This document shows positions 1,483 to 31,414 of a DNA stretch of 64,000 nucleotides, in pieces. The DNA lies in contig NZ_CP009283.1 of assembly GCF_000758625.1 (NCBI RefSeq), positions 6,580,001 to 6,644,000 on the forward strand. Direction: 5' to 3'. Numbering within the stretch: position 1 is the stretch's first letter; the number at the start of each line of letters is the position of its first letter. The position numbers were made by a program, and so were the translations under genes. Origin of the DNA: Paenibacillus sp. FSL R7-0273. Lineage in GTDB: Bacteria; Bacillota; Bacilli; Paenibacillales; Paenibacillaceae. The notes under the pieces were generated by a model. The model was not told the origin of the DNA. It saw only the letters and a list, made by a program, of their open reading frames with translations, and ran no database searches.

Positions 1483-1512
1483 AATATATCACAGTGTTAT
1501 TCGTTTTGGCAA
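1483..1512 (-). promoter_or_regulatory. rRNA promoter P2 (SigA type)
   Basis: The minus strand has a -35 TTGCCA (1507-1512), an 18-bp spacer and a -10 TATATT (1483-1488). Initiation is expected near 1476 at a G, as is usual for growth-rate-controlled Bacillus rRNA promoters. Confidence 0.75.
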
Positions 1513-1592
1513 GTCTTTTTTTTGAAAAATGTTTTTTTCGTTTTTCCTTGCCTTGCGTTCTCTTTTTCAAAATCAAAAGGAGCGCGAGATAT

Positions 1593-1622
1593 AATGTATC
1601 ACGCACGCTCCTATTTAGTCAA
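1593..1622 (-). promoter_or_regulatory. rRNA promoter P1 (SigA type)
   Basis: The minus strand has a -35 TTGACT (1617-1622), an 18-bp spacer and a -10 TACATT (1593-1598), 110 bp upstream of P2. Tandem promoters are the usual arrangement for rRNA operons in Bacillus. Confidence 0.7.
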
Positions 1623-1679
1623 CTCTTTTTATAAAATTTATGGACAAGCACTCAAATCTACAGCCAGCAGCCCGGTAAT

Positions 1680-1910
1680 TTAATGCTTGAACTGGGACGA
1701 ACGCCCGCCCCATGCGTATTTGGACAGCTCCTTCTGCGGAGCAAACCGCGCGTACATGCGAAATACGGTTTTATATCGGTTAGCAATAGCATGCCTGATA
1801 TTTTGGTCCAAGCGCTGATCACTTAAATCAAGAAGCATTTCGTCGAGCTCTTTACGCAGAACATAGTCCAGCTCCTTGCACTCCTTTTCATTGAACAACA
1901 TCCCCAACAT
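1680..1910 (-). CDS. small protein of unknown function, 76 aa
   Basis: I do not recognise this protein. It is acidic and probably helical in its first half (KELDYVLRKELDEMLLDLSDQR), with a basic, aromatic second half ending GGRSSQFKH. No signal peptide, membrane segment or cysteine pair of the zinc-finger kind is seen. The open frame can start at 1931, but a consensus AAGGAGG ribosome site at 1919-1925 lies inside that extension, 8 nt before the ATG at 1908-1910, so the start at 1910 is preferred. It sits just upstream of the rRNA promoters on the same strand. The coding call rests on the ribosome site and the sensible composition. Confidence 0.72.
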   Translation of the reverse strand: MLGMLFNEKECKELDYVLRKELDEMLLDLSDQRLDQNIRHAIANRYKTVFRMYARFAPQKELSKYAWGGRSSQFKH

Positions 1911-2156
1911 ATGCTTGGCCTCCTTCATCATATTATAAAATCGAATTCTTGAGCGCTGCTGTTTATGTGTTAGAAGTTATCCAAGAATGGAGAAACTGTG
2001 CGTATACCCACTTACACTAGATTAACCGGAGCATAGGAACTATAACCATAATTGCTAAAAATTATCTTCATAGTCCGAGCACACACTGCGAGTTGCCTGA
2101 TGTAAAGAATCTCCATATCCCAACAGCCTTAATGGTATGCTCAATTATCTGAGATT
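1911..2156. other. intergenic region with no clear signal
   Basis: A TATAAT hexamer on the minus strand (1932-1937) has no matching -35 box and would start transcription at the ribosome site of the downstream gene, so I do not call it a promoter. No strong hairpin or terminator was found for the SpoIIM-like gene. Confidence 0.5.
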
Positions 2157-2756
2157 TTATGATAAAAGCGCTAATGTAATTGTACTCTCAATAATTGCGG
2201 CAAACAGCAGCAGGAGCACAATCCAGACCGAAGCGGTCAACGTCTGCCGCATAAATTCAGGCCAGCCGGTGTCCCCCGTCCTCCTCCCGAACATGCTCTT
2301 AACAACCCGGCCGCCAAAATGAAGCCCGAACGCGCAAGCGATAATAATAGCCGGAATTTCGATGATCCCGTGCGGAAGCAGCCCTTTAACTATAAGATCA
2401 AACAGGTCCACTCCCTGCAGGGCCGATAAGTGAATGAGATAGCCGATAACAGCACCGTTGATCAATAAAAAGAATGCCGGGATGATGCCAAACAATGCAC
2501 CGAGAAAGATAACCAGTACGCTTTTGATGCTATTGTTCAAAAAGATGAAGGTGAAGAAGCTCCACTCCGGATTGTCCGAACTCATAAGCTCTCCGCTTAT
2601 ACTGCTTAACCCTTCAAGCTGCTGGGCAAGCAGCCGCTGCAGACTGTCTGTACTGATCCAGCCGAGCAATCCCCCCGCCAAAAAGAGTATGAGCGCCAAA
2701 AGCAGCGCCCTCCGGATCGTCCTTAGATCTTTGATGAATCTTGAAAACGCAAACAT
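2157..2756 (-). CDS. SpoIIM-family membrane protein
   Basis: This 199-aa integral membrane protein belongs to the stage II sporulation protein M family. It has an N-terminal membrane segment (about 17-37), a central NN..K.VLVIFLGALFGIIP stretch, NGAVIGYLIHL, then LLPHGIIEIPAIIIA, the family's most typical motif, and a final hydrophobic helix (about 175-197). SpoIIM with SpoIID and SpoIIP forms the peptidoglycan-remodelling engulfment complex. The classical spoIIM lies elsewhere in Bacillus genomes, so this may be a paralogue with another role. The start is set by AGGAGG five bases before the ATG. It is divergent from pdaB. Confidence 0.85.
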   Translation of the reverse strand: MFAFSRFIKDLRTIRRALLLALILFLAGGLLGWISTDSLQRLLAQQLEGLSSISGELMSSDNPEWSFFTFIFLNNSIKSVLVIFLGALFGIIPAFFLLINGAVIGYLIHLSALQGVDLFDLIVKGLLPHGIIEIPAIIIACAFGLHFGGRVVKSMFGRRTGDTGWPEFMRQTLTASVWIVLLLLFAAIIESTITLALLS

Positions 2757-2814
2757 AAAGGCCTCCTATATGGTTTAGTACAAGCTGTTAAAGAGATTTC
2801 TGGTGTGAATGAGG

Positions 2815-2842
2815 TCATAAGCGTTAGGTACGAGCATACATT
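2815..2842 (+). promoter_or_regulatory. candidate SigE promoter of pdaB
   Basis: A TCATAA -35 element (2815-2820) and CATACATT -10 element (2835-2842) are separated by 14 bp. The -10 matches the SigE consensus CATACANT exactly and the spacing is typical. B. subtilis pdaB is a sporulation gene, so mother-cell control is consistent. Confidence 0.65.
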
Positions 2843-2887
2843 TAGAACAAACAAGCCATTTCGCAATGGGAGAGGAGCGCTGCTAGT

Positions 2888-3694
2888 ATGAATTCTTTTT
2901 ATGTATTCAGCGGCAAAAAGATAAAACGATTCATCTATATCTTTGCCGCTGCGCTTTTGGCCGCTGGTGTTGTATACGTGGAAAGGGGCAATATTACCGT
3001 ATTTTCCGATGCCCAAGCCCCGTCTGCCATTTACAGTGTGCCAACGCAAAAGAAGCTGATCGCTTTAACGTTCGACATTAGCTGGGGTGAAAAGCGACCT
3101 GAACCGATTCTGAAGGTGCTGGAGGACAAAAAGGTAGATAAGGCTACCTTCTTCTTATCCTCGCCGTGGAGCAAAACACATCCGGAAATTGTCACGAGCA
3201 TTAAAGATGCAGGCTTTGAAATCGGAAGCCACGGGCATAAGCATGTTAATTACAGCACCCTCAACAATGAGGAGATCCGGACGCAGATTTCCACGGCCCA
3301 CACCGTATTGACTGAATTAACAGGCAAAGAGCCTAACCTGATCCGCATGCCGAATGGTGATTTTGATAAAAGGGTGCTCCAGGTAGCCACTGATCTGGGC
3401 TACAAGGTCATCCAATGGGACACTGACTCTCTGGACTGGAAAAACATCGGTGTAGACAATATCGTCAACCGGGTCACCACCAAAGCTCATCCCGGAGATA
3501 TCGTTCTCCTTCATGCCAGTGATTCCTGCAAGCAGACCCATGAAGCCCTCCCCCGGATAATCGACAATCTACGCGCCCAGGGGTATGAGTTCGTCACTGT
3601 ATCCGAGCTGATTAGCCAAAGCAGCGCCGAAGGCACCGAAGTCCGTGATTCCGCTTCACTGAATAAGGGGCTGGAAGACGCCGCAGGAATGTAG
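2888..3694 (+). CDS. pdaB: polysaccharide deacetylase PdaB (sporulation)
   Basis: This 268-aa NodB-fold deacetylase is needed for keeping spores intact in B. subtilis. An N-terminal membrane anchor or signal (about 13-30) precedes the catalytic domain, which carries TFDISWGE (D63), the zinc motif SHGHKH (H115, H119) and RMPNGDFD. As is typical of PdaB, the second Asp of the classical TFDDG motif is replaced. The ATG follows GAGAGGAG. It is preceded by a SigE-like promoter and is convergent with the polyphosphate kinase gene. Its position between the rRNA operon and kbaA-gerD matches the B. subtilis order. Confidence 0.93.
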   Translation: MNSFYVFSGKKIKRFIYIFAAALLAAGVVYVERGNITVFSDAQAPSAIYSVPTQKKLIALTFDISWGEKRPEPILKVLEDKKVDKATFFLSSPWSKTHPEIVTSIKDAGFEIGSHGHKHVNYSTLNNEEIRTQISTAHTVLTELTGKEPNLIRMPNGDFDKRVLQVATDLGYKVIQWDTDSLDWKNIGVDNIVNRVTTKAHPGDIVLLHASDSCKQTHEALPRIIDNLRAQGYEFVTVSELISQSSAEGTEVRDSASLNKGLEDAAGM

Positions 3695-3738
3695 TCCGTC
3701 CTTACACCTGTCCGTACCGCAATGTCCGGCTTCTGCTG

Positions 3739-4560
3739 TCAGTGACGCGGGGAGATAAGCTCTGATATATCGGGCGTCGGAGTATCCAGCTTAGGATAGC
3801 TCAGATCGAGACTCTCCAGTGTTTTGACTACAATCGACAAAGCCAGATAATTGCGGTACCACCGGTGATTGGCCGGAATCCAGTACCAGGGTGCCTGCTC
3901 AGTGCCGGTCTCCCGGAAAACATCTTCATATGCCTTTTGATAATCATCCCAGTATTCCCGCTCCTGCAGGTCACTGGCATCGAACTTCCAGTGCTTCGTC
4001 GGATCATGAAGCCGCTCCTGGATCTTTTCAAGCTGCTTTTCCTTCGAGATATGCAGGAACAGCTTAATCACCGTCGTACCCTCTTCCACCAGCATTTCCT
4101 CAAACTGGCGGATGTAGCGGAAGCGTCGTTTCATATCTTTCTTTTTGAGGCTGCCATGCACCCGGGGTACAAGGACATCTTCATAATGGGAGCGGTTGAA
4201 GGCTGCGATATAGCCCTTAGGCGGGGTCTTCATATGCACTCTCCACAGGAAATCGTGGGCCTCCTCCTCAAGAGACGGCTTTTTAAAGCTGGTAACGATA
4301 AAGCCCTGAGGGTTAATGCCGGAAAAGATATGCTTCACTGTTCCGTCCTTCCCGCTTGAATCCATCCCCTGCAGAATGACGAGCAGCGAATGCTTTTTTT
4401 GGGCGAAAAGGATATCCTGCAGCTCGGCTAGACGTTCCTTCAGCTTTTCCGTTTTGGCTACTGCTTCCTGTTTGGAGTCAATTTCACCGCGTTCCGACGG
4501 ATCGAGCCTGCTCAGAATGCTTTCACTTGTGTCTTTTATCATATAGCGCTTAATGTTCAT
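3739..4560 (-). CDS. ppk2: polyphosphate kinase 2 family protein
   Basis: This 273-aa single-domain PPK2 transfers phosphate between polyphosphate and nucleotides; which nucleotide is favoured cannot be read from sequence. The Walker A motif GMDSSGKDG is at about 65-73, the lid and Walker B region FNRSHYEDVLVPRV at 121-134, and the family's WKFDASDL and APWYWIPANHRWYRN blocks follow. The frame is open to 4611, but AGGGAGGGG lies 5 nt before the ATG at 4558-4560, so that start is chosen. It interrupts the pdaB-kbaA neighbourhood of B. subtilis, where no such gene is found. Confidence 0.92.
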   Translation of the reverse strand: MNIKRYMIKDTSESILSRLDPSERGEIDSKQEAVAKTEKLKERLAELQDILFAQKKHSLLVILQGMDSSGKDGTVKHIFSGINPQGFIVTSFKKPSLEEEAHDFLWRVHMKTPPKGYIAAFNRSHYEDVLVPRVHGSLKKKDMKRRFRYIRQFEEMLVEEGTTVIKLFLHISKEKQLEKIQERLHDPTKHWKFDASDLQEREYWDDYQKAYEDVFRETGTEQAPWYWIPANHRWYRNYLALSIVVKTLESLDLSYPKLDTPTPDISELISPRH

Positions 4561-4684
4561 ATATGCCCCTCCCTGCTTACTGATTTCAGTTGCGGCCGGC
4601 GGTACGGTCATTAGCTTGTTTATGTAAGCTGTTCTTTAAGATTAACCTTTCTGATTTCATTTTAATCGCGCTGGAATGAACAAG

Positions 4685-4720
4685 AAAACCCCGGGCTCTT
4701 TCTTTGAGCACTGGGGTTTT
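4685..4720 (-). terminator. terminator after kbaA
   Basis: An inverted repeat (AAAACCCCGGGCTC, 7-nt loop, GAGCACTGGGGTTTT) lies just downstream of the kbaA stop. On the minus strand it is followed by a short T-rich stretch (TTTTCTTGTT). Confidence 0.75.
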
Positions 4721-4728
4721 GGTGCGGA

Positions 4729-5334
4729 TTATTGAAATAACGGCTGCGGTTTAAGGATGCGGTGAAGTCTTAAAATCTGGAACGCATTACAGGCAATCAG
4801 CGGAAGAACAATAAATACAGTCGCATTGTCTACACCGATCTGAAGCACGCCTATCGTCTCCACAATGGTGATGGCTGTCATGAAGAAAAAGGTCGGGATT
4901 GCCGCGGCCGCCTTCGTGCTGCGCACCTTGAAATAGGTCACGATAACGGCTGCAGCGAATATTCCGCCGCCCAGAGCCAGATCAGCTCCGCCTGCTTCTG
5001 TTCCTCCGAGAAACGCCCGCAGGAAGACCAGCTCCAGCAGCGCCAGAACAGCCAGTACCAGCTGTATGTACTGCCATACTTTACGGGAAAACACGCCGCT
5101 GCCCATGTAGTTGAGAATCAGATAAGCGAAAAATCCCAGCTGTGCGTAAACGCTCACAAGCATTCCTGAGCCAAGCAGTATAAGAAGGTACAGAAGCAGA
5201 TCTGCCGTGCTTTTAAAGCTTATGCCGCCATTTACAGCCTGCAGTAAAAGTCCCGTCAATCCGGCTGCGGCAGCGCCTGTCAGAAGTGTCGTCCAGAACA
5301 GGTGATACCATTTCCTTATACTCAGCCAATCCAC
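4729..5334 (-). CDS. kbaA: KinB-signalling pathway activation protein KbaA
   Basis: This 201-aa protein has about six hydrophobic segments. KbaA is needed for KinB activity in the sporulation phosphorelay of B. subtilis. Length, topology and position between gerD and pdaB agree with that identity. The start is uncertain: the only upstream canonical codon is the GTG at 5332-5334, which directly abuts its GGGGAG Shine-Dalgarno. A CTG three codons later (5323-5325) has normal spacing. The gene is divergent from gerD and ends in a terminator. Confidence 0.85.
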   Translation of the reverse strand: MDWLSIRKWYHLFWTTLLTGAAAAGLTGLLLQAVNGGISFKSTADLLLYLLILLGSGMLVSVYAQLGFFAYLILNYMGSGVFSRKVWQYIQLVLAVLALLELVFLRAFLGGTEAGGADLALGGGIFAAAVIVTYFKVRSTKAAAAIPTFFFMTAITIVETIGVLQIGVDNATVFIVLPLIACNAFQILRLHRILKPQPLFQ

Positions 5335-5391
5335 CTCCCCTGTGTCAGATTTATTTTACCAAGCCTGCCGTCAAAAAACCATAAGCTCTGC

Positions 5392-5422
5392 GTTATAACC
5401 TGTGACTCCGTGCGGCATACTA
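5392..5422 (+). promoter_or_regulatory. candidate SigG promoter of gerD
   Basis: GTTATA (5392-5397) and CATACTA (5416-5422) are separated by 18 bp. The -10 fits the forespore SigG form CATNNTA. The -35 is only a partial match. gerD is a forespore gene in B. subtilis. Confidence 0.5.
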
Positions 5423-5455
5423 CCCTCAGGATTCCTATAAAGGAGGGCAGCGCCA

Positions 5456-6154
5456 ATGAAGTGGAGGAGTTTGTTGTCTGGAGGCCTGGTGTTAAGCCTG
5501 GTACTCACCTTAACCGCCTGCGGAGGAGAACAGAGCAGTTCTTCCAGCCAAATGGGATATAAGGAAATGAAGACGATGGTTGTCGATATATTAAAAAGCG
5601 ATGAGGGCAAAAAGGCTGTCGAGGAAGCCCTGACCTCTGGCTCCGGCTCTGAAGGCAGCAGTGTCAGCGGACTAAGCATGAAAATGATGCCGCTGCAGAC
5701 TACGGAACAGATCAGGATCGCGGTTAAGGATACCATCACAGCCCCGGAGTATCAGAAGGAAATCGAGAAGATTATGACCGACCCGACCTTTGCGGGCGAG
5801 TTCGCCAAAGCCATCAATACCCAGAGCAAGGAGCTGCACCTGCAGCTGATCAAGGACCCGACTTATCAGAAATCCGTCGAAGAGATCATGAAATCGCCTG
5901 AAATGATGAAAATGTTCCTGGATCTTACCAAGACTTCCGATTACCGAAAGCAGTCAATGACCATTATGCAGGAAGCAATGCAGAATCCGCTATTCCGTAT
6001 GGAGGTGCTGGGGCTGCTCAAGACAGTTGTCCAGGACGAGCTGCAGCCTAAGGTCCAGAAGAAGGGCGAGGAGAAAGAGGGCGGGTCCGGCGGCGATCAG
6101 GAAAGCGGCGGTGACAGCTCGAAGCAGGAGGGCGGAGACGATTCCGGCTCTTAA
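5456..6154 (+). CDS. gerD: spore germination lipoprotein GerD
   Basis: This 232-aa lipoprotein has a signal peptide ending in the lipobox LTAC (Cys22). GerD clusters nutrient germinant receptors in the spore inner membrane. The mature part is helical with repeated EI..IM and EYQKEIEKIM-type segments, and the tail is a low-complexity Gly/Ser/Asp/Glu stretch (about 205-232) unlikely to fold. AAAGGAGGG lies 8 nt before the ATG. A bidirectional terminator separates it from convergent salA. The order kbaA-gerD-salA-cwlD matches B. subtilis. Confidence 0.93.
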   Translation: MKWRSLLSGGLVLSLVLTLTACGGEQSSSSSQMGYKEMKTMVVDILKSDEGKKAVEEALTSGSGSEGSSVSGLSMKMMPLQTTEQIRIAVKDTITAPEYQKEIEKIMTDPTFAGEFAKAINTQSKELHLQLIKDPTYQKSVEEIMKSPEMMKMFLDLTKTSDYRKQSMTIMQEAMQNPLFRMEVLGLLKTVVQDELQPKVQKKGEEKEGGSGGDQESGGDSSKQEGGDDSGS

Positions 6155-6156
6155 GC

Positions 6157-6197
6157 AAAAGAGGCTTATCCCTTTATTGTGGATAAGCCTCTTTTTT
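6157..6197. terminator. bidirectional terminator between gerD and salA
   Basis: An AAAAGAGGCTTATCC arm, a 9-nt loop and GGATAAGCCTC followed by TTTTTT form a strong hairpin with A/T tracts on both sides, suiting the convergent genes. Confidence 0.92.
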
Positions 6198-6215
6198 GGG
6201 ATTCACTCGCCTTGC

Positions 6216-7325
6216 TTACTGTTCGTACTTGGCAATCAGCCTGTCCGCAACCTCTGCAAACAGCTGCGCGGTCTTGGTCTCCGTCTTGTATACTGACGGC
6301 GAAAAGTCCGGCTCCGAAATATGGTTATCCGGTGCGCCCAGCGGCACCTGGGCCAGCAGCTCCGTATGGAGTGTCTCGGCCAGCCTAGCACCGCCGCCGC
6401 GCCCGAAGATATACTCCTTCTGTCCGCAGGCGGAGCATTCATAATAGGCCATGTTCTCGATGACACCGAGCACCTCATGATTGGTCTGCAGTGCCATAGA
6501 GCCCGCTCTGGCCGCTACAAAGGCTGCTGTAGCATGAGGGGTGGTCACAATGATCTCCTTGCTGTGCGGAAGCATCTGGTGCACATCCAGCGCCACATCA
6601 CCTGTACCTGGAGGAAGATCCAGCAGCATATAATCAAGCTCTCCCCAGCCTACATCACTGAAGAACTGGCGGAGCATCTTGCCGAGCATCGGGCCCCGCC
6701 AGATCACCGGACTATTTTCACGGATGAAAAAGCCCATCGACATTACCTTTACTCCAAAGCGCTCCACCGGAATGATCGTTCCGTCCTCCACAACCGGCCC
6801 TTCCTCAATTCCCATCATATCCGGAATACTGAAGCCGTAGATATCGGCATCAATCAGTCCTACCTTTTTGCCCTTGCGTGCCAATGCCACCGCAAGATTG
6901 ACGGTCACAGTCGATTTGCCGACTCCTCCCTTGCCGCTGGCTACTGCTATGAACTTTACACCCGAGTTCTCATCCAGCAGCTCGTGGTCCTCAAGGCCCG
7001 CTGCGTGCCCTTTTAGCGCTGTTCCCTGTTCTTGCTCCTGCTTGTCCGCCGTGCTGTCTCCGCGAAGAATAGAGCGCTCATAATCGGTAGCATTGCGCAG
7101 CCTGATATGAATGTTCTGGACTCCTCCTTCGGTCAGCAAGTCACGTACCTGCTGCTCCAGCTCCATCCGGCTAGCATCCTCTTCCTCAAGACAGACGATC
7201 GATAACGAGATTCTGTCTTCTTTGACCATAATGTCCCGTATCAGCTGCAAATCAATAAGGCTTTTTCCGGATTCGGGGTCGGTAAGCGGCTGCAATAATT
7301 CCTGAATTTGTTCCCTGGTCTGCAT
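6216..7325 (-). CDS. salA: Mrp/ApbC-type P-loop ATPase SalA
   Basis: This 369-aa protein combines an N-terminal MIP18/DUF59 domain (about 1-85), a variable linker rich in Glu and Gln (about 90-120) and a Mrp/NBP35 ATPase domain with the deviant Walker A GKGGVGKS (131-138). A CSAC pair near the C terminus fits the family. In B. subtilis SalA regulates scoC and exoprotease expression; Mrp relatives carry Fe-S clusters, so both roles are possible. The frame is open to 7397, but AGAGGTG sits 6 nt before the ATG at 7323-7325. Confidence 0.92.
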   Translation of the reverse strand: MQTREQIQELLQPLTDPESGKSLIDLQLIRDIMVKEDRISLSIVCLEEEDASRMELEQQVRDLLTEGGVQNIHIRLRNATDYERSILRGDSTADKQEQEQGTALKGHAAGLEDHELLDENSGVKFIAVASGKGGVGKSTVTVNLAVALARKGKKVGLIDADIYGFSIPDMMGIEEGPVVEDGTIIPVERFGVKVMSMGFFIRENSPVIWRGPMLGKMLRQFFSDVGWGELDYMLLDLPPGTGDVALDVHQMLPHSKEIIVTTPHATAAFVAARAGSMALQTNHEVLGVIENMAYYECSACGQKEYIFGRGGGARLAETLHTELLAQVPLGAPDNHISEPDFSPSVYKTETKTAQLFAEVADRLIAKYEQ

Positions 7326-28074: not shown

Positions 28075-29424
28075 TTAAAGATTATCGGTAGCCGACTTAA
28101 AATACTCCGCCGATGCGGCACTTTGCGCCGTTGTTGAGCCAATTCCTTCTATTGTCTGTATTAATACCTTGATCTCTTCTTCCACTACTACGATTTCCTG
28201 TGTGCTGGCCTGCATGGAATCAACAATTACACTGAACAATCTGCTGGTCTCGACAGACTGCTCTTTACCGCTCCTTGTCAGTTCCTGCACCTTACGGATC
28301 TCCTGAACTACCTGGCGGGTCAGCTCCGCTGATTGCTGTGTTAAGTCGCCTATCCGAACAACGGTGCTCTTGGTATCCTCAGCCAGCCGGCTGACTTCGC
28401 TCGCCACTACACTAAAGCCTCTGCCATGTTCGCCGGCGCGCGCTGCTTCTATTGTAGCGTTAAGTGAAAGAATTTTGGTCTGGTCGGCGATTTCCTGCAC
28501 CGCTGCCACAATCCGCTGGATCTGCCTGGAGGAGCTGCTTAGCTCATTTACAGAGCGTTCCATCTCATTAGTGCTCTCATAAATAAGGTTGATCTGGCCG
28601 CTTAGGCTGCCGAGCTGTCCTTGTCCATCCTTAGCCATCTCACGAGACTCTACAGCTGTAGAAGCCGTGCGGCGGAAGGTATTATTCACTTCATTGCTGC
28701 TGGCTACCAGCTGCTCTACAGCGGCGTTAGTATCCATGCTGAGATCAATCAGTTCTCCGCTGAATTCAGCAATCTTCTGCTTCAGTTCATTTTTTACAAT
28801 AAGGTATTGCTCTTCCTTCTCTCTGATGTTCTCTTTCTCATAGGCTTCAAGCACCAGCTGCTGCTCCAGATTGAGAAGCTTTGTTAGGGTCTGAACCACT
28901 TTCAGCCGCTCATTATCCTTAAGACTCTCACCATAGACTACTGTAATAAAAACATTCTGAAGATTCTGGAATGCCGACAGATACCATTTAGGCTCTAGTC
29001 CCACCCGCTTATGGATCTTGGCTATCGTCAGCCGCTTGGCAATATACTGTTCGTCCACATTTCCGTCGAATATCTCAATAATATGCAGCTTTAATGTTCT
29101 TTTCAGTCGCTCAATGCTGCTATGCTCAAGTATGATCCTCTCAAGCTTATCTACACCGAGTACAGTATTGTAGAACTGGTCGGTAATGTAGTCGATTTCA
29201 CGTTCCACCGTAGGCTTCATCAAGCGTAAAAGGTTTAAATCTTCCTCAGTAAGGTCAATCATTCGCATCTGTTCGTTCAGCTCATCATGCCCGTTCAGGG
29301 TATGAAAAGCTGTCGTGGCAATGGGTGCATTAAGCTCGCTGTCCTTGGAGTGCGCGTCGGGAGATTCCTCGTTAGTCTTGCGTAATTGAATGCCATGCAT
29401 AAATGAAAAAGGACACTTCCCCAT
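28075..29424 (-). CDS. hemAT: heme-based aerotaxis transducer HemAT (globin-coupled MCP)
   Basis: This 449-aa soluble receptor joins an N-terminal globin-coupled sensor (about 50-210) to a C-terminal methyl-accepting signalling domain (about 225-449). The proximal heme ligand is H138 in [14 protein letters not shown], and Y85 in DQFY sits 53 residues before it, the same spacing as Y70 and H123 of B. subtilis HemAT. The MCP hairpin tip is present as [20 protein letters not shown]. There are no membrane segments. It should bind oxygen and signal to CheA. The first 45 residues are an extra, probably disordered extension. Confidence 0.93.
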
Positions 29425-29474
29425 ACTTCCACTCTCCCTGAATTTCTAAAAATTAGCATTGCAAATATAGCAAT

Positions 29475-29504
29475 ATTCTAACCTACGAGAGAGATAATTG
29501 TAAA
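29475..29504 (-). promoter_or_regulatory. candidate SigA promoter of hemAT
   Basis: TTTACA (29499-29504), 18 bp and TAGAAT (29475-29480) on the minus strand. No SigD-type motility promoter (TAAA with GCCGATAA) was found in the 219-bp gap, so control differs from many chemoreceptors. Confidence 0.55.
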
Positions 29505-29593
29505 GAATTTTAAGTATTATTTTGTAGAATAATGTTGTATAAACCGCAGTATTGGATAGAATTGTGTCTTATTTTGTCGAATAAAGTGTAGCA

Positions 29594-29645
29594 TTGATTG
29601 ATCATAGTATATGGTCATCAAATCTCCAACAAGAACATATGTTCT
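29594..29645. repeat. inverted repeats between hemAT and the FNR-like gene
   Basis: TTGAT (29594-29598) and ATCAA (29617-29621) flank a partly symmetrical GATCATA/TATGGTC centre. Just beyond, AGAACATATGTTCT (29632-29645) is a perfect 14-bp palindrome that overlaps the stop codon of the FNR-like gene. Their roles are unknown. Confidence 0.5.
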
Positions 29646-30357
29646 AGCTGGTGATTTCAGCAATCTGCGATAGTGCTAATAGATCCAAAATGGTTACGCT
29701 CCGGTTGTTTACTTGAATTAGCTTCATCCGCTCGAGCTGGTTCAGCTTACGGCTGAGTGTTTCAGGCGTCGTACCGATCATCGCTGCGAACTCTTTTTTG
29801 GCAGCCGGCAGATGAAGCATTGGTTGCCCCTCTCCCCCGCCTGTCGACAGTGATTGTTTGGCATATAGATGCAGCAGCAGCCGGGCCAGCCGTTTTTCCG
29901 CCTCAAAAATATGCAGTGCTCCTGCCAGCTCATCGGCCTGCTGCAGCTGCTCACTAACGGACTTCAGGAAGCTGAAGGCCAGGCCGGCATTACTTGCTAT
30001 CAAAGGCATAAAATCTTCACGCCGCATCCGGCAAATATATCCGCTTTCCACCACTTCGGCTGTAGCGTAATGCTGTTTATTATGAAGCAGGGCAAACTGG
30101 CCAAAGTAATCTCCAGGAAAAAGAAAACGGAGTATATGCTGCTTCCCCTCTATGCTGGTCTGGGTTAGCTTTATCAGCCCATTATTGACAACAAATAAGG
30201 AGTCTGACTGCTCTCCTTCTCTGAACACCACGTTTCCTTTTCCATAGAACTCAGACTCAATGATCGACTCTACCTTATGCAGCTCCTGATCAGGCAAAGC
30301 AACAAAAACCGGTACCTGACGGACACAGGAGTCCTTATGGCATGTATTACATTTCAT
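29644..30357 (-). CDS. Crp/Fnr-family regulator, FNR-like with candidate Fe-S cysteines
   Basis: This 237-aa regulator has an N-terminal cysteine cluster (C3, C6, C11), a cyclic-nucleotide-like beta barrel (about 25-125) with a further Cys at 109, a dimer helix and a winged helix-turn-helix (about 170-230). Three N-terminal cysteines plus one about 98 residues later is the layout of E. coli FNR, whose four cysteines hold an oxygen-labile [4Fe-4S] cluster. The recognition helix PETLSRKLNQLE has the E..SR pattern of FNR, which reads TTGAT-N4-ATCAA. Such a site lies upstream. AGGAAGGAA precedes the ATG. Confidence 0.9.
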   Translation of the reverse strand: MKCNTCHKDSCVRQVPVFVALPDQELHKVESIIESEFYGKGNVVFREGEQSDSLFVVNNGLIKLTQTSIEGKQHILRFLFPGDYFGQFALLHNKQHYATAEVVESGYICRMRREDFMPLIASNAGLAFSFLKSVSEQLQQADELAGALHIFEAEKRLARLLLHLYAKQSLSTGGGEGQPMLHLPAAKKEFAAMIGTTPETLSRKLNQLERMKLIQVNNRSVTILDLLALSQIAEITS

Positions 30358-30382
30358 TATGCATCGTTCCTTCCTGACTGCC

Positions 30383-30473
30383 TTATGCCAACATATCAGG
30401 ATTATGCCAACTTCCCGGTGACCCCGCGCACAATAATCTTGAAAACTTGATCTGTATCAAGGATTATGCCGTT
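30383..30473. repeat. direct repeats TTATGCCAAC in the divergent promoter region
   Basis: TTATGCCAAC occurs at 30383-30392 and 30402-30411, 19 bp apart, and a variant TTATGCCGTT at 30464-30473. Read on the minus strand the copies give TTGGCATAA, so one copy could act as -35 (TTGGCA) and the next as -10 (CATAAG, 17-bp spacing) for the FNR-like gene. Confidence 0.6.
30447..30460 (+). promoter_or_regulatory. perfect FNR-type binding site
   Basis: TTGAT-CTGT-ATCAA matches the FNR consensus TTGAT-N4-ATCAA without a mismatch. Its centre (30453.5) is 41.5 bp from the start point predicted by the -10 box at 30483-30488, the position of a class II activator site. Confidence 0.85.
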
Positions 30474-30482
30474 CCTTCGCTT

Positions 30483-30488
30483 CATAAT
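30483..30488 (+). promoter_or_regulatory. -10 element of the V4R-cupin promoter
   Basis: CATAAT lies where an activator-dependent -10 should be relative to the FNR-type site; no -35 match is present, as expected for class II activation. A start near 30495 would leave a short leader carrying AGAGGAG at 30506-30512. Confidence 0.65.
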
Positions 30489-30522
30489 AGAGGTAGAGAG
30501 ATGATAGAGGAGATGGACAGCT

Positions 30523-30972
30523 ATGCAGCAGTATACTTTTGGAGATATGCGGAAGATGGACAGAGCCAGGCTTGGCAATATGGTGCCGCTGGAGCTGTTC
30601 CGTACGATAAGACTGATTGGCATGAACCAGGGTCTACCTATGGGCGGTAAAGGTACAACGCTAACTGTAGGAAGAAAAATCGGTGAGAGCCTTCCGGTTA
30701 CTAGTGTGGATGAGCTGCTGGCACTTTTTGAGGAGCTGAAAATCGGTATTCCGCGGATTGTCTATTCGGATGAGCACAGGATGAATATTGCTGTTGAGGA
30801 TTGCTTCTGTAAAGGCCTGCCGACACTGGAAGAAGAGAAAATGATTTGTGATTTAGAAGGTGCCATCCTGGAGGGAGCGTTGACTAAACTGTTTGGCCGC
30901 AGGGTAAGCGTAAGAGAAATTAAGTGTAATGCCACCGGTGATGAGTATTGTGAGTATGAAGTAAAGCTGTAA
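30523..30972 (+). CDS. V4R-domain protein, cysteine-rich
   Basis: This 149-aa protein is a V4R (4-vinyl reductase) domain with almost nothing added. V4R domains bind small hydrophobic or tetrapyrrole-like ligands in some proteins, but no function is fixed for stand-alone copies. Five cysteines (C94, C96, C109, C135, C143), including CFC and CNATGDEYC, could bind a metal or cluster. The C-terminal CNATGDEYCEYEV is typical of the family. AGAGGAG lies 10 nt before the ATG. It sits behind an FNR-type site and 37 bp before the cupin gene. Confidence 0.82.
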   Translation: MQQYTFGDMRKMDRARLGNMVPLELFRTIRLIGMNQGLPMGGKGTTLTVGRKIGESLPVTSVDELLALFEELKIGIPRIVYSDEHRMNIAVEDCFCKGLPTLEEEKMICDLEGAILEGALTKLFGRRVSVREIKCNATGDEYCEYEVKL

Positions 30973-31009
30973 CCCTAAGGGGAAAATCAAGAGAAAGCAG
31001 GAGATTACT

Positions 31010-31351
31010 ATGGAAAAGAAAAATATTAGCGAAGCTATTCAACATCTGGAGGAGCGTTTTACGAAAAAGGTGCTGTTTCAAAAGGGAGACAGTATAGTGT
31101 TCGTGCTTAATTTTATGCCAGGTCAAAAGCTTCCGGCGCACACTCATCCCGGAGCAGATGTGTACATTTATGCTCTCCAAGGAAAGGGCACCATTACTGT
31201 AAATGATGCTGACGAGGAATTTGCTGAGGGTGAAGTTATCCACATTGCGGATGATGAGGTTTTTGCTTATCGTAACAGCGGAACCACTCCGGCCAGTCTC
31301 CATGTTGTAATATCAAAGCTTCCGAGCGCAGCATACGCTAAAGAAATTTAA
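31010..31351 (+). CDS. small cupin-domain protein
   Basis: This 113-aa single cupin has motif 1 as GQKLPAHTHPGADVYIYAL, giving two His ligands (HTH) and Asp in place of the usual Glu. Motif 2, GEVIHIADDEVFAYRN, has Phe where the third metal His normally stands. Metal binding may be altered. Small cupins serve as enzymes or ligand sensors; this one cannot be assigned. GCAGGAG precedes the ATG, and the gene is the second of the V4R-cupin unit, closed by a terminator. Confidence 0.85.
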   Translation: MEKKNISEAIQHLEERFTKKVLFQKGDSIVFVLNFMPGQKLPAHTHPGADVYIYALQGKGTITVNDADEEFAEGEVIHIADDEVFAYRNSGTTPASLHVVISKLPSAAYAKEI

Positions 31352-31374
31352 ATATCGCTATAACCCGGATGTAA

Positions 31375-31414
31375 ACTCTATCTGCAGGAGAACTCTCCTG
31401 TGGATAGGGTTTTT
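31375..31414 (+). terminator. terminator after the cupin gene
   Basis: CTATC and GCAGGAG pair with CTCCTG and GATAG across an AACT loop, followed by GTTTTTG on the plus strand. Confidence 0.85.

Follow-up and report, generated by a model that had tools for sequence, protein, structure and literature searches.

A candidate low-oxygen switch formed by an FNR-type regulator gene and a divergent V4R–cupin operon between rpsJ and tuf of Paenibacillus

Genes and regulatory elements of the rpsJ–tuf interval

We analysed a stretch of 64,000 nucleotides from the genome of Paenibacillus sp. FSL R7-0273 (hereafter the window; G000:C1:6580001-6644000, part of a single 7.29 Mb contig). Within it, the interval between rpsJ and tuf carries hemAT and an fnr-like gene on the minus strand and a V4R gene followed by a cupin gene on the plus strand. 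A preliminary description of this DNA had placed four genes of these types between the two ribosomal operons, and all four are present at the coordinates it gave, with domain matches that confirm their types; the flanking rpsJ and tuf were identified by eye and by conserved gene order. The same description assigned a single small gene to this interval in Bacillus subtilis; we take that gene to be ybaC, which is not small. The features of the interval are as follows.

28075–29424, minus strand: hemAT, globin-coupled methyl-accepting chemotaxis receptor (Pfam Protoglobin 1.4e-44, MCPsignal 7.2e-27); a neighbour, outside the co-inherited unit
29644–30357, minus strand: FNR-type transcription regulator (cNMP_binding and HTH_Crp_2 domains)
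30418–30431, no strand assigned: second conserved CRP/FNR-type box, GTGA-N6-GCAC, conserved in the aligned intergenic regions
30433–30460, minus strand: candidate fnr promoter with its -35 overlapping the FNR box (TTGATA-16-GATTAT, 9/12 matches; pattern only)
30447–30460, plus strand: FNR-type box TTGATCTGTATCAA, between the divergent fnr-like and V4R genes
30483–30488, plus strand: -10 element CATAAT of the V4R promoter (predicted transcription start at 30495)
30523–30972, plus strand: stand-alone V4R protein with five invariant cysteines (Pfam V4R 4.7e-14)
31010–31351, plus strand: small single-domain cupin, second gene of the operon (Cupin_2 2.4e-14)
31373–31412, plus strand: candidate intrinsic terminator 3' of the cupin gene (18-pair stem and T tail, from a pattern scan)

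Co-inheritance of the genes and conservation of the shared promoter

The interval was compared among 100 sampled genomes of the genus, the window's own included, of which 99 contain rpsJ (G023, which lacks it, was left out) and three (G025, G013 and G120) have an interval that is incomplete at a contig end. At this position the fnr, V4R and cupin genes are present as a whole trio in 42 of the 99 genomes and missing altogether from the other 57, and, as judged by recognisable gene matches, no genome of the 99 carries part of the trio. Scoring of hemAT divides the same genomes into 30 with hemAT and the trio adjacent to each other, 12 with the trio but without hemAT, 28 with hemAT only and 29 with neither. 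A stricter hemAT score, under which four low-scoring matches become absent, gives 28, 14, 26 and 31, respectively; one of these four (in G075) may be intact going by the length of its interval. On a tree built with a quick method from rpsJ, tuf and rplC DNA, the trio requires five changes and hemAT 16. The naive test associates the trio with hemAT (p 0.04), but among phylogenetically independent pairs the two changed in the same direction 1.7 times and in opposite directions 0.9 times, that is, there is no link. Thus, a neighbourhood check of the kind proposed in the preliminary description finds the trio inherited as a block and hemAT varying independently.

The encoded HemAT protein itself is unremarkable. 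It combines the Protoglobin and MCPsignal domains as does the HemAT aerotaxis receptor, its residues H101, H114 and H138 are invariant in 53/53 genomes, and the gene is unusual only in its place between ribosomal operons. Upstream of hemAT, a perfect FNR-type box is absent from all 53 genomes, three of them having one with a single mismatch, and CRP boxes match there with two mismatches at best. The presence/absence pattern, the tree and the missing upstream boxes led us to reject hemAT as a module member, and the two-route oxygen module that had been proposed for all four genes does not stand. The four genes make two things, not one: the unit consists of fnr, the promoter region and V4R–cupin, and hemAT looks like a separate co-resident outside this device.

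Decaying V4R or hemAT copies with retained neighbours were observed in the intervals L064 (G028), L071 (G060) and L053 (G031). The V4R gene has an internal stop in G028, where the last 32 codons are matched, and in G060, and the first 22 residues are unmatched in G031. The nearest named locus in the V4R scan was that of Paenibacillus camerounensis, whose V4R protein is 95% identical to that of the window.

The fnr–V4R intergenic region could be aligned in 41 of the 42 trio genomes, G028 being left out as its V4R start is gone. The box TTGATNNNNATCAA is perfect in 38 of these regions and carries one mismatch in the other three, and at a fixed distance from it three of the six positions of the -10 element (A, A and T) are invariant in all 41. 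The best match to TATAAT lies 22 base pairs (bp) downstream of the box in 39/41 regions, and the predicted start is an A in 39/41, which places the box centre at -41.5. This is the position reported for FNR-activated promoters of Escherichia coli with a known start, where 19 sites of 23 promoters lie at -41.5 within 4 nt (PMC3688515). The 56 complete intervals without the trio contain no perfect box and a single box with one mismatch. When one mismatch is allowed, a scan of the window yields three FNR-box matches as compared to 2.98 expected, TTGATCTGTATCAA being the only perfect one; hence the pattern in the window is not significant by itself and it is conservation in relatives that carries weight, with the qualification that the box-carrying trio genomes are related and their counts not independent. 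Within the box, variation is highest at the final two of the four central bases and the arms are retained, which points to selection on the arms.

A second element, GTGA-N6-[GTA]CAC, is found in all 41 aligned regions and starts 28–32 bp upstream of the first box. Through this element, a further CRP/FNR regulator might act on the local fnr gene. The overlap of the FNR box with the -35 of the candidate fnr promoter makes autoregulation of fnr possible, this candidate being one of 12 promoter-like patterns in the stretch as compared to 6.1 expected. Since the box overlaps this possible -35 and the second, CRP-type box lies 29 bp away, the fnr gene would probably limit its own expression and may receive input from a different CRP/FNR protein.

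Across the whole genome (7.29 Mb), the perfect palindrome occurs 12 times and its reversed pattern twice. Seven of the 12 sites lie inside mechanically called frames, two precede Kef-like antiporter genes, two fall in gaps and one is that of the cassette (names by eye); one of the seven in-frame sites also sits 161 bp before a LutA-like gene (name by eye). A role of FNR as genome-wide master regulator acting through perfect boxes was rejected on the basis of these 12, mostly in-frame sites, one-mismatch boxes not having been searched genome-wide. The cassette box is the only one of the 12 that resembles, by eye, the promoter box of anaerobic-type genes, and so the switch looks like a local one. 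At the two antiporter sites (L004 1501-1514 and L008 1501-1514), the perfect palindrome is TTGATTCGAATCAA in both, at 44 bp from one Kef-like frame and 31 bp from the other, and the two frames resemble each other (names by eye).

That the V4R–cupin pair stands behind an FNR-type site, as previously noted, is borne out by the perfect, conserved box in activating position. Judged from sequence, it is highly probable that the FNR-type protein switches V4R–cupin via this class II-position box.

Residue conservation in the regulator, the V4R protein and the cupin

Among the orthologs of the regulator, C3 is conserved in 41/42 and C6, C11 and C109 in 42/42 each, and C109 occupies the position of C122 in an alignment with E. 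coli FNR. Its recognition residues are E..SR as in FNR, which we take to be an FNR signature. With three N-terminal cysteines and a C122 equivalent in 41–42 of 42 orthologs, and with E..SR and a TTGATN4ATCAA target in activating position, the protein is FNR-type in the wide sense. The genome holds eight matches above the cut-off of the Crp-type HTH family, and one paralog has a C-terminal cysteine cluster of the B. subtilis Fnr type. The window regulator shares with E. coli FNR and its class II promoters the C122 equivalent, E..SR and TTGATNNNNATCAA at -41.5 (PMC3688515), but it differs by a CxxCxxxxC arrangement near its start, by having a divergent local operon as target, and by a Paenibacillus genome in which no set of clear promoter boxes was found. 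In Paenibacillus sp. WLY78, an fnr gene is reported to be 6.84-fold up under nitrogen-fixing conditions, in a paper in which the word cupin does not occur (PMC4774088). Going by its residues, the regulator may carry a [4Fe-4S] cluster on C3, C6, C11 and C109 and would be active at low oxygen. It would then bind TTGATCTGTATCAA at -41.5 of the V4R promoter and activate V4R–cupin.

The V4R protein has 149 residues, exceeds the gathering cut-off of PF02830 and adopts a V4R fold in its predicted model (predicted local distance difference test score, pLDDT, 86.7). Cysteines C94, C96, C109, C135 and C143 are invariant in 39/39 sequences. We assume an E178/C181 spacing in MopR, which would fit E132 and C135 of the V4R protein. 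The model of MsvR matches residues 25–147 at 1.5e-13, over model positions 111–236 only and with 51 bits as compared to a cut-off of 220, and the N-terminal DNA-binding domain of MsvR is absent from the 149-residue protein. C109, C135 and C143 share the spacings 26 and 8 with C206, C232 and C240 of MsvR, a redox regulator of methanogens with a V4R domain, which controls the F420H2 oxidase gene fpaA (PMC3729527). The same three residues match the spacing of C151, C177 and C185 of DmpR, but Glu172 of its zinc site, five positions before C177, has no spacing match to E132, which lies three before C135 (PMC7264223). As compared to MsvR, the window protein lacks a DNA-binding domain and has the extra C94/C96; the likeness extends to the neighbourhood in that MsvR controls fpaA and two relatives of the V4R–cupin pair sit in a flavodiiron row (see below). 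These features suggest that the V4R redox sensor domain of the archaeal MsvR has a counterpart in bacteria.

The cupin belongs to Cupin_2 (53.2 bits as compared to a cut-off of 27.2). H44 and H46 of the HxH in motif 1 are conserved in 42/42 sequences, and the motif-2 His of metal-binding cupins is absent, F85 occupying its place in 13/13; we located motif 2 by what we take to be its usual pattern. To our knowledge, no cupin or FNR link exists for B. subtilis YslB and MJ1460, which are stand-alone V4R-fold proteins.

A quite different role for the pair would be that V4R binds a hydrophobic ligand or lipid in the manner of Bet3/YslB and the cupin acts on this ligand as an enzyme, with FNR only timing both to anaerobic growth. 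Aromatic sensors anchor the phenol hydroxyl by a His/Trp pair (PMC7264223, PMC10715001). This pair is gone from the V4R protein, which contains no Trp and a single His, H85, present in only 12/39 sequences; a phenol-type sensor was rejected on account of the missing Trp, and the ATPase and DNA-binding parts of DmpR, MopR and PoxR are absent as well. A ligand binder would leave the strong cysteine conservation unexplained, and the missing motif-2 His speaks against the enzyme. We regard this alternative as improbable. Instead, V4R may be a stand-alone sensor or adaptor with a zinc or thiolate site formed by C109, C135, C143 and perhaps E132, in addition to the C94-x-C96 pair, and the cupin would be its first candidate partner.

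V4R relatives, the nitrate link and overall interpretation

Genomes with V4R relatives numbered 53/246 in the order sample, 13/299 in the class sample and 20/348 in the phylum sample, these samples overlapping. Outside rpsJ–tuf, boxes were scored at 29 V4R loci, leaving out L063, whose V4R is broken. An upstream box is present in 22 of the 29: 11 have a perfect TTGAT-N4-ATCAA and 11 others a TGTGA-N6-TCACA with at most one mismatch, three of the latter lying 143–153 bp upstream of V4R. Eight further loci (L240–L247) comprise a perfect TTGAT box in L240 and L245, one with a single mismatch in L242, TGTGA boxes with at most one mismatch in L241 and L243, and neither in L244, L246 and L247; V4R is partial in L242, L246 and L247. 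The divergent arrangement of fnr, box and V4R recurs without a cupin in one other genus (L205, L206, L208, L211, L213 and L214) and in a third (L210 and L245). Of 38 other V4R loci, 17 have a Crp/Fnr match no more than 5 kb away, adjacent in 12, whereas about 1% would be expected by chance (our estimate for ~8 family members in a genome of 7.3 Mb, with loci that are non-independent). A cupin is found in 4/38.

In G305, G189, G222 and G126, a TTGAT box precedes V4R without an adjacent fnr gene, and an FNR relative (39–42% identity) is encoded elsewhere beside a CuNIR-like gene, identified by a below-cut-off model match in L257 only and by eye in the other three. Box type was considered as a strict marker of regulator type and rejected, as G400 combines a TGTGA-type box with a 45% relative and genomes with TGTGA boxes can have P-E-x-x-S-R as well; the link between box type and regulator type is a loose one.

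At two of the four cupin-bearing loci, the genes are lined up as in an operon, together with those for a flavodiiron protein and a further FNR-like regulator. In L059, the row before V4R comprises, by model matches, a flavodiiron protein (matched by the flavorubredoxin model below its cut-off), a rubredoxin-reductase-like protein, an FNR-like regulator, a methyltransferase and a cupin. The flavodiiron rows of L059 (about 1500–6800) and L060 (6300–11200; by eye) hold cupin and V4R in reversed order. Other neighbours of V4R relatives are the hydroxylamine reductase Hcp, above cut-off, in L199; NarG, above cut-off, with a nitroreductase and a solute-binding protein in L217 (ModA by eye); a DUF2249 protein in L062 and a MoCF_biosynth protein in L241 (by model); and below-cut-off CuNIR-like proteins in L063 and, beside the fnr relative, in L257. 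By eye, we also noted narG in L207 and L247, DUF2249 in L240 and L241, and NnrS-like proteins in L062 and L241, for which Pfam gave no match.

The narG gene is matched in 58/100 genus genomes, the window's own included, in 56 of them above cut-off. It accompanies the trio in 35/42 genomes as compared to 23/57 of the others (naive p 2.6e-5), and any V4R match in 42/57 as compared to 16/42 without. Among independent pairs, V4R and narG changed the same way 5.5 times and the other way 0.0 times (median p 0.06), the trio and narG 3.9 and 0.1 times (median p 0.125), and hemAT and narG 2.8 and 2.3 times. The link of V4R or the trio with narG is suggestive. Together with the neighbours of the V4R relatives, these counts add a nitrate and nitric oxide side to the picture drawn previously.

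In our best explanation, to which we assign a probability of roughly 0.6, the fnr-like gene, the shared promoter and the V4R–cupin operon make up a low-oxygen switch whose output is a V4R sensor with a cupin partner. Its functional half, in which V4R, partnered by the cupin, senses thiol/zinc state or nitric oxide during nitrate-linked anaerobic growth, is tentative when taken separately. V4R would probably read a thiol/metal state or nitric oxide during such growth and relay it to a partner. More speculatively, and with odds clearly against it, V4R–cupin could be a free-standing second-tier sensor: an MsvR-type redox V4R, freed from its DNA-binding domain and made only when FNR reports low oxygen, would read thiol/zinc state or nitric oxide and pass the signal on, either through the cupin or by returning it to the FNR-type protein; a single compact locus would thereby sense first oxygen and then nitrosative or oxidative damage in series.

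Several observations weigh against our explanation. The regulator misses the cut-off of the curated NCBIfam Fnr model (NF008365) by scoring 82.6 bits as compared to 228, and FNR relatives outside the clade often retain only three of the four cysteines. A good box is missing from 7/29 V4R loci and from 3/8 further ones, and the cassette box stands alone among the 12 genomic sites in its likeness to anaerobic-type promoter boxes. Allowing for phylogeny leaves the narG link borderline, 7/42 trio genomes lack narG, and V4R genes located elsewhere in genomes without the trio are unlinked to it (8/16 as compared to 15/41). Finally, three genomes that retain fnr and cupin have an impaired V4R gene, which is damaged in G028 and G060 and shortened in G031.

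The missed Fnr cut-off and the three-cysteine relatives, as well as the hcp, flavodiiron, CuNIR-like and DUF2249 neighbours, would also fit a CRP/FNR protein that answers another signal, e.g. nitric oxide or thiol state, with its cysteines holding another cofactor and V4R–cupin being a nitrosative-stress operon that is not switched by oxygen. Retention of all four cysteines in 41–42 of 42 members of the window clade argues against this possibility, which we consider unlikely. It overlaps with the oxygen reading, since Paracoccus FnrP, a [4Fe-4S]-containing FNR, responds to nitric oxide as well as to O2 (PMC4771820). Least likely by far is that all four genes belong together, with hemAT steering movement and FNR switching V4R–cupin, as the 30 genomes with all four adjacent and the naive association are outweighed by the 28 and 12 genomes in which hemAT or the trio occurs without the other, by the independent pairs, by the missing hemAT boxes and by the absence of a link between hemAT and narG. 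What survives of the single oxygen module is the FNR-type regulator, the box in activating position, V4R–cupin downstream of it and their inheritance as a block.

The roles of bacterial stand-alone V4R proteins are described as poorly understood (PMC2253512). Among the papers listed in our literature searches, none described a V4R–cupin or V4R–FNR unit, which is no proof of absence. For one such protein there is now a probable regulator, a promoter predicted to the exact position, a partner gene that recurs and a likely physiological setting (anaerobic, with nitrate or nitric oxide), and with these in hand its function becomes directly testable.

In other classes of the phylum, distant V4R proteins, of which L248 has three, precede HD or signalling-like genes in L248, L250, L251 and L252, by eye except for L251, where the HD protein was identified by model; this hints at a general sensor role. 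Elsewhere in the window, a partial 16S rRNA (1–1320) and a ribosomal protein L10 leader (RF00557; 45825–45978) were found, both of them ordinary.

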